Made by a program: the position numbers and the translations under genes | Shown: piece by piece, positions 3,611 through 8,672 of the stretch | Position numbering within the stretch: the stretch's first letter is position 1 | How the letters are laid out: every line of letters begins with the position of its first letter | Origin: a virus | Length of the DNA stretch: 32,366 nt | IMG/VR virus record: IMGVR_UViG_3300043466_000321 | Location: 1 to 32,366 of that record | Direction: 5' to 3' (one strand) | Notes under the pieces: model-generated | Seen by the model: the letters and a program-made list of their open reading frames with translations, nothing else | Told to the model about the DNA's origin: nothing | The model's database searches: none

Positions 3611-4144
3611 TTAAATTTTAATGTTTTTATTCATTCTATAAACTGCTTGTAATCTTTCTATAATTATTTCTTGGTGTTCTTTACCTTCTGTTTCTAATAA
3701 TAGTGTTTCTATGTTGTTTACTATTTTGTAATTGTTTCTTGGTTTTTGTAGGTTAGTAATTGTTTCTTGCAAGTTTACTATTTCATCAGTTAGTTTCATT
3801 ACATCTAATTGTAAACTTTGTATATATTCATCTTTAGACAAATCTACTATTTCTGGTGATGCATAATTTAATCTTTGCAATATTTGTTTCCTGAATAGTT
3901 TTAATGTTGGATTAAACTTTTCAAACATTTCATAGTTTTTTAATGAATGTAGAACTGTTGCGTGGTCTTTTCCTACTGAAGCACCAATAGATTGTAGTGA
4001 CTTCTTTTTATCTATTTGCTTTAATATCTTATAATAGATTGCCCTTGCTTCTATTATTTCTCTTTTGCGTGATATTTGATTTATATCTACACCTGTTATT
4101 TCTTGTATTGTTTTTTTTAGTTGTAGTGTTATTTGCGTTTCCAT
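3611..4144 (-). CDS. DnaA domain IV-like DNA-binding protein
   Basis: 177 aa. Residues about 10-72 match the C-terminal DNA-binding domain of the replication initiator DnaA: SRKREIIEARAIYYKILKQI, then KKSLQSIGASVGKDHATVLH, whose GKDHATVLHSLK (58-69) is the DnaA-box recognition helix signature. The AAA+ ATPase domain of DnaA is absent. The rest is a coiled coil (about 95-145, YIQSLQLDVMKLTDEIVNLQ) and a basic tail. It could bind DnaA-box-like sites at the phage origin, redirect or block host DnaA, or act as a transcription regulator. The fold assignment is strong and the role is inference. Confidence 0.85.
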   Translation of the reverse strand: METQITLQLKKTIQEITGVDINQISRKREIIEARAIYYKILKQIDKKKSLQSIGASVGKDHATVLHSLKNYEMFEKFNPTLKLFRKQILQRLNYASPEIVDLSKDEYIQSLQLDVMKLTDEIVNLQETITNLQKPRNNYKIVNNIETLLLETEGKEHQEIIIERLQAVYRMNKNIKI

Positions 4145-4356
4145 CTTATTTTTATCTTTTGTTTTTTACTTTCTTTTATTAGTTGTGTTAATATATTGAA
4201 TGATACTATTTCTACTGCTAAATGTATACCTTGGCATTCTTCATATAGTTCTGCTGCTTCATACTCTTTTAATATTAACCTTAAATGTGCAATAGAAGTT
4301 CCTTGTTCTATTTCATATAAGGTTATATTATAATGTTCTGTTGCTATATCATTCAT
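4129..4356 (-). CDS. Hypothetical protein, 75 aa
   Basis: MNDIATEHYNITLYEIEQGT... is a helical acidic protein with a strongly basic end (KESKKQKIKIRWKRK) that may contact nucleic acid. The start overlaps the stop of the GIY-YIG/MazG gene as TAATG, and the 3' end overlaps the DnaA-like gene by 16 bases. Co-translation with both is likely. No known domain. Confidence 0.75.
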   Translation of the reverse strand: MNDIATEHYNITLYEIEQGTSIAHLRLILKEYEAAELYEECQGIHLAVEIVSFNILTQLIKESKKQKIKIRWKRK

Positions 4357-5111
4357 TATTTGTCTTTAATAAATGTTCCATTTTCCATTTTACCTGTTCT
4401 TTTAGATATAACATTATAAGCACTATGAATACAATCTTCTATATTATATCCTGCTAATTTAGATAAGTTAGTTAAAACAACAACACAATCACCAATAGCA
4501 TCAATTATTTCTTCCTTATCATTATTTAATAAAGCTTTAGCTAATTCACCTGCTTCTTCTTGTAATTTAATATATTGTGTTTTAACATCACCTTTTTCAA
4601 ATATACCTTTTTGTTCTGCCCAAGTTCTTATATTATTAAATATCTCTAATTCATTTTCTTTATTAGCATTTAAGTAATTTAATAAAGCATCTATGTATAT
4701 AAATCTTTCTTTATTGTGTTGTGAACTAGAATTATTTTTAATAATCCATTCTATCGTTTTATTATCAAACTCTATATGATTGCCATTTAATAATTCCACC
4801 AACATAGGGAATTTATATCCTGTTAATTTACTATCTTCAGTTCCTTTAAATGTTAATGTTCTTTCTGTTATGTGAATCATTTTGCTCATAATTTTTTTAT
4901 TTTTATTAATCATTAATTGTAAATATGAATTTTTATCTTTTTTGTAATTAAATATATTTTGAAAATGTATTTCTAATTTAGATGCTTGTTTTATATTATC
5001 TGTTGTTGCTAATATATCATACTCTTTATATCCTTGTGTTTTTTCCACACGGCTTTTTAAATTTTTTGTGCATCCAACTTTAATACCTTTAATATGATAT
5101 ATGTAATACAT
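4356..5111 (-). CDS. GIY-YIG-like domain fused to MazG-like pyrophosphohydrolase
   Basis: 251 aa. Residues 1-65 resemble a GIY-YIG nuclease-type domain: YYIYHIKGIKVGCTKNLKSR with Arg21, and ASKLEIHFQNIF with Glu47 at the expected catalytic position. Residues 75-155 are a linker of unknown nature. Residues 158-251 are a MazG-type all-alpha NTP pyrophosphohydrolase with the metal-binding motif EEAGEL (185-190) followed by EEIIDAIGD (200-208). MazG-family enzymes, including dCTPases, convert dNTPs to dNMPs plus pyrophosphate. The gene directly follows the thymidylate-synthase-like gene with a TAATG overlap, so it may supply dNMP substrate. Nucleotide specificity cannot be read from sequence, and the first domain may be binding-only. 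Confidence 0.8.
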   Translation of the reverse strand: MYYIYHIKGIKVGCTKNLKSRVEKTQGYKEYDILATTDNIKQASKLEIHFQNIFNYKKDKNSYLQLMINKNKKIMSKMIHITERTLTFKGTEDSKLTGYKFPMLVELLNGNHIEFDNKTIEWIIKNNSSSQHNKERFIYIDALLNYLNANKENELEIFNNIRTWAEQKGIFEKGDVKTQYIKLQEEAGELAKALLNNDKEEIIDAIGDCVVVLTNLSKLAGYNIEDCIHSAYNVISKRTGKMENGTFIKDK

Positions 5112-5743
5112 TATTTTTTATTTAAAAAATCATTATATAAGTGAAGATTTTGAGCAAAATGATAGTAATTACCTATTTGAATATTTAATTCATTAGAAAC
5201 CATTTCTTGAAGTTTACTAAAACAATATTGATCATTACAAAATCCATACCATAAGTCATTAGAACGCATTAATACAGTCATATTTAATTTATTATTTAAT
5301 ACAGTAAACTGAACGGCGTATGTACAAGGAGTATCTTTATAATAAGTATCTATTTCTTTTCCATCATAAATTGAAATACTTGCTTTTCTTGTATCTGATT
5401 TTTGTTTTAATAAATTAATAACTTTATCAAGTTGATTATTTCTTTTCCATTGCCAACCATAATTAGACCTAACATTACCATTTTCATCCATCATATTTTT
5501 CCATATAGGTGCAAATTTACTAATTTCAGTTCCTGTTGGATTTCCTTCTAAATACCAATTCCATTCTCTAATAGCATATTTATCATTCCAATCTCTAAAA
5601 TTAGTATTAATACTATTATCTAATGGATTTAATATTTCAAATCCTATATTAAATAAAGCTTTAGTATTATCAAATTTTAAACCTTTTGCTATTATTAAAT
5701 CATAATAATATTCAAATGCTTCTTGTGCATTTTTAAATTCCAT
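5111..5743 (-). CDS. Thymidylate synthase-fold protein, candidate dCMP (hydroxy)methylase
   Basis: 210 aa, shorter than typical ThyA (about 264 aa). Visible family features are: the EWNWYLEGN helix (60-68); Arg119 in DTRKASISIYD; the nucleophile Cys140 in DTPCTYAVQF; the phosphate-binding RSND (160-163); and the ribose-contacting LHLY (200-203). In a gapless alignment from RSND, the Asn that discriminates dUMP in ThyA falls on Asp171 (YGFCNDQYCF). Asp at this position is the hallmark of T4-type dCMP hydroxymethylases. A one-residue gap would instead put Asn170 there, so this is not certain. Its neighbours are a methyltransferase and a MazG-type hydrolase. It may therefore make 5-methyl- or 5-hydroxymethyl-dCMP for modified phage DNA. 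Confidence 0.8.
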   Translation of the reverse strand: MEFKNAQEAFEYYYDLIIAKGLKFDNTKALFNIGFEILNPLDNSINTNFRDWNDKYAIREWNWYLEGNPTGTEISKFAPIWKNMMDENGNVRSNYGWQWKRNNQLDKVINLLKQKSDTRKASISIYDGKEIDTYYKDTPCTYAVQFTVLNNKLNMTVLMRSNDLWYGFCNDQYCFSKLQEMVSNELNIQIGNYYHFAQNLHLYNDFLNKK

Positions 5744-5744
5744 A

Positions 5745-6509
5745 TTATTTTCTTTTTAAAATCCATAATGTATTTCTTGAATGTTCAGGAAAAAATGGAG
5801 CCATTAAATTACTAACTAAATTTGAATCATAGTATTTTTTTAAATGTTCAAACATTTGTGTTTGCCATTCATTCATAAAAGGTTTATAATCTTTTATTGA
5901 AGCAAATGTGCCAAAAGAATCTACTACTTTAGCGTGTTTATTAAATAAATTATTTAATTCTTCATAAGAAAATTCTTGTATTGCAACACCTCTACCGTCA
6001 CCACTATCGTAAGTATGATTACCTGCTGCTCCAACTTTTTCATCAAAATTAGGAGTACTTATATAATAAGTAGCATTTTCATTACCACAATTAATAAAAT
6101 TTTCCATAAATTTATCAGCATTTTGTTTTCCTACGTGCTCTAAAACTTCAAATGAACAAACTTTATCAGCTTTAAAATCTAAAAAATTAATACCATTTTG
6201 TGGATTAACTAAATCTTCAGTTAAAAATTCTGCCCATTCTACATTTTTATATTTTTCATTTGCAGAAAGTATTGTTTTATTACGAATATCAATACCAATA
6301 TATTTATCACATTTAAATTTATTACGATATAAAACTTCTAATAAATTACCTTTTCCAGAACCAAAATCTACTATTTTTTCACCTATTTTAGCTTCTTTTA
6401 AAATATGAGTCCATCTCAAATAATGAGCAAATTGGTCTCTGTGAAATACGTGACGTTCAAAAGTTGTTTGAGGGTCTAAATCTGTTGTGTTGTACTTTTT
6501 TGTTTCCAT
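5745..6509 (-). CDS. Class I SAM-dependent methyltransferase
   Basis: 254 aa with a Rossmann-type methyltransferase core. Motif I is IVDFGSGKGNLL (46-57), the acidic residue after strand 2 is D74 in YIGIDIR, and motif IV-like is FEVLEHV (120-126). This resembles Methyltransf_11/12/23 enzymes, not classical DNA methyltransferases: no DPPY, NPPY or Cys-containing PC motif is seen. The substrate is therefore probably a small molecule, a nucleotide or an already modified base. It lies one base upstream of the thymidylate-synthase-like gene and appears to belong to one transcription unit with it. Confidence 0.9.
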   Translation of the reverse strand: METKKYNTTDLDPQTTFERHVFHRDQFAHYLRWTHILKEAKIGEKIVDFGSGKGNLLEVLYRNKFKCDKYIGIDIRNKTILSANEKYKNVEWAEFLTEDLVNPQNGINFLDFKADKVCSFEVLEHVGKQNADKFMENFINCGNENATYYISTPNFDEKVGAAGNHTYDSGDGRGVAIQEFSYEELNNLFNKHAKVVDSFGTFASIKDYKPFMNEWQTQMFEHLKKYYDSNLVSNLMAPFFPEHSRNTLWILKRK

Positions 6510-6518
6510 TTTTTTTAT

Positions 6519-6782
6519 TTATTTATTATTTATATAATTGTTTAAACTTCCTAAATATGCTACTGTATCAAGTAAATTATCTTCTTTGTGATTATAAGAC
6601 TCTCTAGATAATTTTAATGCTATTAATGCTTTATATATTAATATAGCATCTACTTCATAACCTAACATACCTGAAAGTATTAAGGCAGCTCTGTCCATTC
6701 CTTCCTCAAAAGGTCCATACATACGTTCTTTTTCTTCTGAACGTAAATTAATAATTTTGTTTGCTTCTTCTAAAATATTCAT
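6519..6782 (-). CDS. DUF6378-like phage protein
   Basis: 87 aa, helical: RSEEKERMYGPFEEGMDRAA followed by ILSGMLGYEV and LIALKLSRESYNHKEDNLLD-TVAYLG. The pattern YG-x-F/E, an LSG-type helix, K-LSRE-YN and D-x2-D-x-V-x-YLG matches the DUF6378 family of phage proteins as I recall it. It also recalls the nucleotide-modification-associated family DUF1599. It is the first gene of the cassette reading down to 4356 and has its own promoter 24 bases upstream. A role in nucleotide metabolism is inferred from family resemblance and neighbours only. Confidence 0.75.
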   Translation of the reverse strand: MNILEEANKIINLRSEEKERMYGPFEEGMDRAALILSGMLGYEVDAILIYKALIALKLSRESYNHKEDNLLDTVAYLGSLNNYINNK

Positions 6783-6806: not shown

Positions 6807-6857
6807 TAAAAGTATTATTTAATTTAATTATATAAAATTAATTAACAAATTTTTAAC
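6807..6857 (-). promoter_or_regulatory. Promoter of the nucleotide-modification cassette
   Basis: Minus-strand boxes: GTTAAA (6857-6852), GTTAAT 11 bases further on (6846-6841), then after exactly 26 bases TACTTTTA (6814-6807), a near match to TAnnTTTG. The start codon at 6782 follows after 24 bases. The spacing is identical to the promoters at 601-651 and 12732-12782. The distal box overlaps the stop codon of the exonuclease gene. Confidence 0.6.
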
Positions 6858-7621
6858 TATAATATACCTCTTAATACATATTGATTTAAATCTATATCTT
6901 CTTCACCAAAGAAGTATTTATAGTTAGATATTGCTTGTTCTAACTTTGCTTCACCTTTAGCATAAAATTCATCACTACATTCAAAAATTGCTATATCCAA
7001 ACTTCCTTTGTCTATTGCAACAAAAATAAAGTCATTAACATTAAACATCTTTTTATATAAATATGCCTGTAAATCGTAGCTATATTTGTCTGCACTATAT
7101 CTGAAGTCTTTAATGCCACTTGTAGTTTTTAAATCTATAATCATATTTGACTTTAATATATCTGCTTTTGCTCTAAATGGTATGCCATCAATCATTTCAA
7201 TAGCTGGAATTTCTGTTTGTGATTTACTCATTAAACTCATAACTTCATTGTTCTTTAATAAAGCATCAGTTAAACGTTCAGCATCTTGATATTCTTTTCT
7301 TGTGTAAACTTCTAAACCTTGTTCTTTTGCCAGTTTGTATTCTTTTCCAGCTTTAGTTGCTACATCTACAATTACTAAATCATTTAACTTATGTGGTTCT
7401 AATATCATTGTGTGAAATAGTTTGCCATCACGTAATGCTTGACTTTCTTCAGAACCATATTGTGTAACGTATTTATAAGTTTTAGGTGAAGATATTAGCA
7501 TTTTTGCTGATGAACTACTCAAAGCATTTTTACCTAAATATCCATAATAAAAACTATCATCATACATATTGTCTAATAGTTCTTGTTTATCCCATTGTTT
7601 GTTATCAAAAGTTGTTATCAT
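6857..7621 (-). CDS. PD-(D/E)XK exonuclease, RecE/DUF3799-like
   Basis: 254 aa. ALSSSSAKMLISSPKTYKYV (33-52) is the substrate-binding helix typical of the family. LRDGKLFHTMILEP includes His70. The nuclease core is FRAKADIL (149-156, D154) plus IIDLKTT (161-167, D163 and K165), followed by YDLQAYLYKK with Gln185. This is the RecB/YqaJ-like layout of phage recombination exonucleases. It would resect ends to produce 3' single strands for the ERF protein at 11932. The start overlaps the stop of the preceding 52-aa gene (ATGA). Confidence 0.88.
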   Translation of the reverse strand: MITTFDNKQWDKQELLDNMYDDSFYYGYLGKNALSSSSAKMLISSPKTYKYVTQYGSEESQALRDGKLFHTMILEPHKLNDLVIVDVATKAGKEYKLAKEQGLEVYTRKEYQDAERLTDALLKNNEVMSLMSKSQTEIPAIEMIDGIPFRAKADILKSNMIIDLKTTSGIKDFRYSADKYSYDLQAYLYKKMFNVNDFIFVAIDKGSLDIAIFECSDEFYAKGEAKLEQAISNYKYFFGEEDIDLNQYVLRGIL

Positions 7622-8320: not shown

Positions 8321-8466
8321 AATCTGTATTGTATTGCTCTTATTTTATCGTTTATCTTTTCATCATTCAAACCTTTTAAATATAATGAATTTCTTTTCTT
8401 AATTAAATAGTTTAAAGTATATTCTAATTCTAATGTATCAAACTTTATTTGTTTTGTTCTATCCAT
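8308..8466 (-). CDS. Hypothetical basic protein, 52 aa
   Basis: MDRTKQIKFDTLELEYTLNY... ends KIRAIQYRLRIV. It overlaps the DUF3310 gene by 22 bases and terminates inside the loop of the downstream terminator, so translation and termination are physically linked. Basic and helical. No known family. Confidence 0.65.
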   Translation of the reverse strand: MDRTKQIKFDTLELEYTLNYLIKKRNSLYLKGLNDEKINDKIRAIQYRLRIV

Positions 8467-8672
8467 TGTTCTTGTTGTTGTCTTAAATATAATAATTCTC
8501 TTTCCAAATAATCTATTGCTTTTTCTAAATCTTTTATATGTGTGCCTTTGTGTTTTGCTCTTGCTACATATTTTATTACGTTACCTTCATTAAAGTTTAA
8601 ATTATAATCTTTTATGAAGTCTATAACATCGTATTCTTTTTGGTTGTTGTAGTGTGATGGTACTCCTATCAT
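8445..8672 (-). CDS. DUF3310 family protein
   Basis: 75 aa. PSHYNNQKEYDVIDFIKDYN followed by FNEGNVIKYVARAKHKG and DLEKAIDYLERELL is the complete DUF3310 signature found in many phages (P-x-HY, N-x-G-x-x-IKYV-R, D-L-x-KA-x-YL). The family is often annotated as a nucleotide-kinase-like phage protein, but no activity is firmly established. It lies in the early region with the recombination genes. Confidence 0.88.
   Translation of the reverse strand: MIGVPSHYNNQKEYDVIDFIKDYNLNFNEGNVIKYVARAKHKGTHIKDLEKAIDYLERELLYLRQQQEQWIEQNK

Follow-up and report, generated by a model that had tools for sequence, protein, structure and literature searches.

A four-gene cassette in a virus contig

The window analysed here is the whole of IMG/VR virus record IMGVR_UViG_3300043466_000321 (32,366 nucleotides), a 32 kb contig classed as linear, and the element under study is a cassette of four minus-strand open reading frames (ORFs) at positions 4356 to 6782, which an earlier note made from the sequence alone had read as a nucleotide or DNA base-modification system. 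Terminase, portal, tape-measure, Erf-type annealing protein and endolysin genes are present in the record. The closest named relatives of the cassette gene compared are from Bacteroides phages (51% identity), so a Bacteroidota host is likely. The ORFs lie head to tail in the order DUF6378 protein, methyltransferase, thymidylate-synthase-fold protein and MazG-ended protein, separated by 9 nt, by 1 nt and then by a 1-nt overlap at TAATG; ORF and Pfam calls agree with the gene order and spacings previously described. The features of the cassette are as follows.

6519..6782, minus strand: DUF6378 protein, 87 aa (Pfam PF19905, E 3e-11)
5745..6509, minus strand: class I S-adenosylmethionine (SAM) methyltransferase, 254 aa; candidate 5-hydroxymethylcytosine (5hmC) O-methyltransferase (Pfam Methyltransf_23, E 2e-12; PDB profile match to Hen1; gene neighbourhoods; structural model)
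6135..6149, minus strand: methyltransferase ExxEH motif (E121, E124, H125), aligned with Hen1 metal ligands E796, E799 and H800
6015..6017, minus strand: methyltransferase His165 of the AxNH motif, invariant; candidate fourth Hen1-type ligand (His860) from alignments in which the register is unsettled
5111..5743, minus strand: predicted deoxycytidine monophosphate (dCMP) hydroxymethylase, thymidylate-synthase fold, 210 aa (PF00303, Thymidylat_synt, E 2e-24; MilA and T4 PDB matches)
5321..5326, minus strand: hydroxymethylase catalytic Cys140 and Thr141 (T4 C148/T149; E. coli C146/H147)
5231..5233, minus strand: hydroxymethylase Asp171, base-discriminating (T4 Asp179; E. coli Asn177)
4356..5111, minus strand: fusion protein, 251 aa, with a weak N-terminal T5orf172/GIY-YIG-like region and a C-terminal MazG domain, candidate dCTPase (Pfam, PHROG)
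4500..4559, minus strand: MazG catalytic motif EEAGE...EIID, residues 185-204 (EExxE...ExxD pattern)

The cassette encodes a predicted dCMP hydroxymethylase and a MazG-type pyrophosphohydrolase

The closest PDB profile matches of the 5111-5743 product were the CMP 5-hydroxymethylase MilA (E 1e-16) and T4 dCMP hydroxymethylase (E 1e-14); most thymidylate synthases ranked below them. The protein carries Glu60, Cys140, Thr141, Arg160 and Asp171, and its SNYG and MRSNDLxYGFCND blocks are as in T4. Asp179 is the cytosine-selecting residue of the T4 enzyme, and Asp171 corresponds to it and to Asn177 of E. coli thymidylate synthase, bearing out the earlier claim of an aspartate at the base-discriminating position. 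Asp was found here in 202 of 203 distinct relatives, and Thr at position 141 in nearly all. Compared with enzymes of the T4 gp42 type, the protein thus has the fold by profile, the catalytic Cys and Glu, and Asp replacing Asn177. In the MetaGPA study, Asp177 and position 147 were the best markers of modified-cytosine phage contigs, and a MazG-like pyrophosphohydrolase domain was among the co-occurring domains (PMC8670742).

The window protein ends where E. coli thymidylate synthase has about 50 further C-terminal residues. This C-terminal part of thymidylate synthase participates in the closing and reduction steps, so its absence makes hydroxymethylation more likely than reductive methylation. 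A dCMP-type hydroxymethylase is the prediction strongly supported by the residues and the relatives. Two Asp-type relatives occur in Bacteroides phage BF503P4 (L001:5154-5915 and L001:7989-8669), both annotated as deoxycytidylate hydroxymethyltransferase.

The MazG domain of the 4356-5111 product scored above the Pfam cut-off (PF03819, E 5e-6) and matched the PHROG MazG-like group (E 3e-29). The EExxE...ExxD motif of MazG nucleotide pyrophosphohydrolases is present in the window protein and retained in 148 of 161 distinct relatives. The N-terminal region gave a GIY-YIG/T5orf172 match of E 0.004 and 17.9 bits, under the curated cut-off of 20; of the GIY-YIG/MazG fusion first proposed, the MazG part stands and the GIY-YIG part is marginal. 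Of 167 distinct MazG proteins, 59 have the long, fused form and the majority, 108, are shorter. In several relatives the MazG and hydroxymethylase genes are separated by a 123-residue ORF of no known family (L060:2038-2409), which is conserved across the module swap described below.

The methyltransferase is linked to the hydroxymethylase

IMG/VR was scanned with the hydroxymethylase (517 loci), DUF6378 (503 loci) and others, and the best 80 loci of each scan were compared. A pattern scan with the methyltransferase alone recovered only 4 loci; by profile scan, the METHYLTRANSFERASE family, to which the window methyltransferase belongs, was found at 213 loci with 68 distinct members. Members carry the motifs HRDxxAH and APxxP partly by construction, since the scan relied on them; this does not apply to the neighbouring genes. 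At 63 of the 68 distinct loci a hydroxymethylase lay on the same strand, and in four of the remaining five the methyltransferase was at most 0.6 kb from a contig end. The search for the same gene set in related phages, which the earlier note had suggested, thus indicates that the set is no chance assembly. Other neighbours of the 68 were DUF6378 (57), MazG (41) and dCMP deaminase (25). A SAM synthetase domain (PF00438, E 1e-10) occurs in some of these clusters, as would be expected if much SAM is consumed. In one cluster (L271:5989-11307) the Asp-type hydroxymethylase is preceded by a protein with a 5-hydroxymethyldeoxyuridine (5-hmdU) DNA kinase helical domain (PF18723, E 9e-52), by a SAM synthetase N-terminal domain and by a dUTPase.

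The linkage extends to unrelated phages, namely two Manatee Spring phages and Stenotrophomonas phage AXL3, in which the methyltransferase (24-35% identical) sits with a pyrophosphohydrolase, a thymidylate kinase, an Asp-type enzyme and a dCMP deaminase. The AXL3 methyltransferase is a distant homologue (24% identical) beside the Asp-type enzyme and the pyrophosphohydrolase, and gp28 of AXL3 carries the marker residues Asp and Thr. AXL3 DNA was not cut by 35 of 37 restriction enzymes, and the two that cut both have A/T-only sites; its authors concluded that alteration of G/C bases is possible, took the thymidylate synthase to serve dTMP synthesis and reported a separate ThyX (PMC7504290). The digest pattern is compatible with a modified cytosine.

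The same annotation raises the possibility that the window enzyme performs ordinary dTMP synthesis beside unrelated neighbours. It has the thymidylate synthase fold, and such genes are routinely annotated in this way, AXL3 gp28 included (PMC7504290). We rejected ordinary thymidylate synthesis on the residues and the genomic context: 202 of 203 relatives have Asp as the discriminating residue, and AXL3 has a separate ThyX and modified DNA. The chance that it applies is very slight.

The methyltransferase occupies an exchangeable slot

In the compared relatives the hydroxymethylase and MazG genes are nearly always close together, and the gene content between DUF6378 and this pair varies. The slot may hold nothing, a three-gene set, a T4-type glucosyltransferase homologue, an FkbM methyltransferase with a 342-residue protein of unassigned family, or the window methyltransferase. 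The four-gene set of the earlier description is a real association of genes, and is one version of an interchangeable cassette rather than a fixed set. Homologues of T4 beta-glucosyltransferase were found in L096 (PF09198, E 2e-12) and, more weakly, in L087, and a homologue of T4 alpha-glucosyltransferase in L133 (PF11440, E 2e-18). Both T4 enzymes act on the 5hmC hydroxyl in DNA, which suggests that the slot is where a decorating enzyme belongs. The suggestion that the methyltransferase adds a further step is supported to this extent; its product may be a methylated 5hmC.

A natural swap was seen between L061 and L057, whose left flanks (1.5 kb) are 88.0% identical and whose right flanks (3.4 kb) are 91.7% identical. 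Between the flanks L061 carries the methyltransferase and a 61-residue ORF (1.1 kb) and L057 the three-gene set (2.8 kb), and the right boundary lies 1 base before the last base of the methyltransferase ORF. The window and L003, whose hydroxymethylases are 80% identical, show the same difference. A tree of 158 hydroxymethylases requires the slot content to have changed repeatedly, and its well-supported branches force the methyltransferase label to change nine times or more; the count is approximate, a few loci being labelled as having none when the methyltransferase lies beyond 4.5 kb.

The three-gene set encodes proteins of about 300 residues each: an SGNH-like protein (GDSH and GNxD motifs), a second protein with no Pfam or PDB match, and a PALP-type pyridoxal phosphate (PLP) enzyme. 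It lies at L057:1711-4354, and its second gene is present in 211 viral loci, next to Asp-type hydroxymethylases. The set is a candidate for a new 5hmC hypermodification pathway. Two further slot proteins had no Pfam match (L131:2873-4195, 440 residues, and L157:5090-6148, 352 residues); the former appears glycosyltransferase-like by eye.

The company of T4-type glucosyltransferase homologues also bears on whether the Asp-type enzyme could be a dCMP methylase, making 5-methyl-dCMP as in phage XP12, with the methyltransferase acting independently. The Asn-to-Asp change alone is cited as converting thymidylate synthase to a dCMP methylase (PMC8670742). Against this, the same enzyme family accompanies those homologues, the enzyme is without the C-terminal part of thymidylate synthase, and its best PDB relatives are hydroxymethylases; we consider a dCMP methylase improbable.

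Fold and predicted chemistry of the methyltransferase

The best PDB profile matches of the methyltransferase were Hen1 RNA 2'-O-methyltransferases (E 6e-12), with the SAM motif and ExxEH aligned. E121, E124 and H125 align with E796, E799 and H800 of Arabidopsis HEN1, once an 8-residue tag in the PDB chain is allowed for; these HEN1 residues bind the metal that positions the acceptor hydroxyls, and the fourth metal ligand of HENMT1 is located after strand 5 (PMC10781085). In the structural model (predicted local distance difference test score, pLDDT, 88) strand 5 is followed by a short helix that contains the invariant His165, a candidate for this fourth ligand. By comparison with Hen1 proteins, the methyltransferase has the profile similarity, three of the four metal ligands (E, E, H) align, and the candidate for the fourth, an invariant His, is in an unsettled register.

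This similarity could mean that the methyltransferase is a Hen1-like enzyme that repairs or modifies RNA 3' ends and is a mere passenger of the cassette, its best solved relatives being Hen1 proteins. However, the window showed no RNA ligase or kinase partner, the methyltransferase swaps exactly with presumed DNA-decorating modules, and it is tied to the hydroxymethylase across unrelated phages. The genomic context argues for a DNA-base role and not for the RNA 3' terminal ribose, and we judge RNA repair to be highly improbable.

A different alternative keeps 5hmC and places the activity of the methyltransferase elsewhere, on N4 of hydroxymethylcytosine, on another base, or in the transfer of a non-methyl SAM-derived group. 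The class I fold does not discriminate, and use of carboxy-SAM by a phage cytosine enzyme provides a precedent (PMC12783734). Conversely, the glucosyltransferases whose homologues share the slot act on the hydroxymethyl oxygen, O-methyltransferases are the best relatives by profile, and none of the labelled neighbours was noticed to be a carboxy-SAM synthase, although no specific search was made. Such an activity seems unlikely overall.

A proposed T4-like pathway with a methyltransferase as decorating enzyme

The cassette is best called a system that works like T4 cytosine replacement, in which a methyltransferase instead of a sugar-adding enzyme is the new element. In the first step the MazG domain would hydrolyse dCTP to dCMP, removing the normal nucleotide, as its domain family suggests. 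The Asp-type enzyme would then turn dCMP into 5-hydroxymethyl-dCMP, a step strongly supported by its residues and relatives, and kinases would raise this product to the triphosphate for incorporation into DNA. Finally, the Hen1-like methyltransferase may methylate the hydroxymethyl oxygen, probably in DNA, to give 5-methoxymethylcytosine; slot and linkage place this step where relatives would add glucose or use another module. The DUF6378 protein would act as a conserved helper alongside these steps, and the modified DNA would evade host restriction.

The T4-like logic of a MazG deoxynucleotide pyrophosphohydrolase with a dCMP-type hydroxymethylase, already put forward in the earlier note, is strongly supported by the residues, the relatives and the literature on modified-cytosine phages, and we are confident of a core that produces 5hmC. 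That the methyltransferase acts on the modified cytosine is probable. For the methyl group itself the chances of the hydroxymethyl oxygen are about even, 5-methoxymethylcytosine being the best single chemical guess, and the whole reading, T4-like cytosine replacement decorated by a methyltransferase to give this base, is slightly favoured. More tentatively, with the balance a little on the doubtful side, a widespread phage group may replace cytosine by 5-methoxymethylcytosine through a dedicated Hen1-like methyltransferase, with recombination at the slot swapping methyl, glucosyl and other decorations.

Several points weigh against this reading. The activities of all members are predicted ones. 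Fold search with the methyltransferase model returned generic class I enzymes, with N-, O- and C-methyltransferases tied; the profile alignment leaves the register of the fourth Hen1 ligand (His165 against His860) unfixed; and XhhEH-type motifs occur in small-molecule methyltransferases too (PMC1397878). The AXL3 methyltransferase is just 24% identical, and the digest is blind to C versus G and to 5hmC versus a decorated form. The 5-hmdU-kinase-like domain in some clusters could indicate a longer pathway there. The 32-kb record, which is possibly incomplete, yielded neither a phage dCMP deaminase nor a thymidylate kinase. Searches of the literature collection used here found no paper on 5-methoxymethylcytosine in phage DNA, which does not prove its absence elsewhere.

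The T4 set comprises the gp56 dCTPase, the gp42 dCMP hydroxymethylase and the alpha- and beta-glucosyltransferases. The cassette resembles it in combining a pyrophosphohydrolase, an Asp-type hydroxymethylase and a decorator, with homologues of the T4 glucosyltransferases in the slot of relatives, and differs in that the decorator is a methyltransferase, the hydroxymethylase has 210 aa versus 246 in T4, and no phage kinase was found in the record. MilA, the best PDB match, has Asp at the same position, but its substrate is a ribonucleotide in antibiotic synthesis. Hen1 proteins act on RNA 3' ends, whereas the phage methyltransferases, which share their SAM motif and ExxEH, have HRDxxAHxxRW and C-terminal APxxPxxxRNxLW blocks. 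The MetaGPA 5hmC carbamoyltransferase system likewise has an Asp177-type enzyme, a MazG-like pyrophosphohydrolase and an enzyme transferring a group to 5hmC, but takes carbamoyl from carbamoyl phosphate where the cassette would use SAM (PMC8670742). The CmoX 5-carboxymethylcytosine system also transfers a SAM-derived group in phage cytosine modification, but through a C5-methyltransferase homologue that works on DNA cytosine and not on a pre-made hydroxymethyl group (PMC12783734). In AXL3, gp27-gp31 form one block with methyltransferase, pyrophosphohydrolase and Asp-type enzyme in a phage whose DNA is modified at C or G; this block has an additional thymidylate kinase and dCMP deaminase, its methyltransferase is 24% identical, and it was published as dTMP synthesis (PMC7504290).

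If the proposal is true, capping 5hmC with the help of SAM would create a natural DNA base that is new, and would protect against restriction more cheaply than glucosylation does. Candidate enzymes for decorating 5hmC, interchangeable with one another, can be read directly from the slot, the three-gene set (more than 200 viral loci) among them. The pathway could also explain, in a way open to testing, why AXL3 DNA resists restriction, an observation of 2020 to which no cause was assigned (PMC7504290).

The DUF6378 protein and the flanking genes

DUF6378 is the recurrent first gene of the cassette and is proposed to be a conserved helper in it. Its members gave no meaningful match to other Pfam families or PDB sequences. 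The model is a 5-helix bundle (pLDDT 83) with no significant match in the fold search; the weak matches were E. coli MazG (3crc, E 8, Z 4.5) and RS21-C6 (2oie, Z 3.5). These matches neither show nor exclude that DUF6378 is a second MazG.

A single promoter at 6807-6857 had been claimed upstream of the cassette, and this was not borne out. A TTAAAA-18-TATAAT match lies at 6856-6827, yet the region holds 19 such matches versus 31.7 in shuffles, no better than chance. The TTTG-N(17-21)-TAnnTTTG motif had no match in the claimed promoter region and no excess across the window. In close relatives the DUF6378 gene and the gene upstream of it overlap, which gives no reason to infer a separate promoter.

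The upstream neighbour often precedes the cassette in relatives:

6857..7621, minus strand: PD-(D/E)XK exonuclease (DUF3799), from a domain call

Directly after the cassette, and in many relatives, lies a gene for a protein with a DnaA C-terminal helix-turn-helix (3611-4144; PF08299, E 2e-10), which is likely to be replication-related. At 8445-8672 the window encodes a DUF3310 protein (PF11753, E 7e-15); PHROGs groups DUF3310 with nucleotide kinases, and the protein could bear on phosphorylation of the modified nucleotide.

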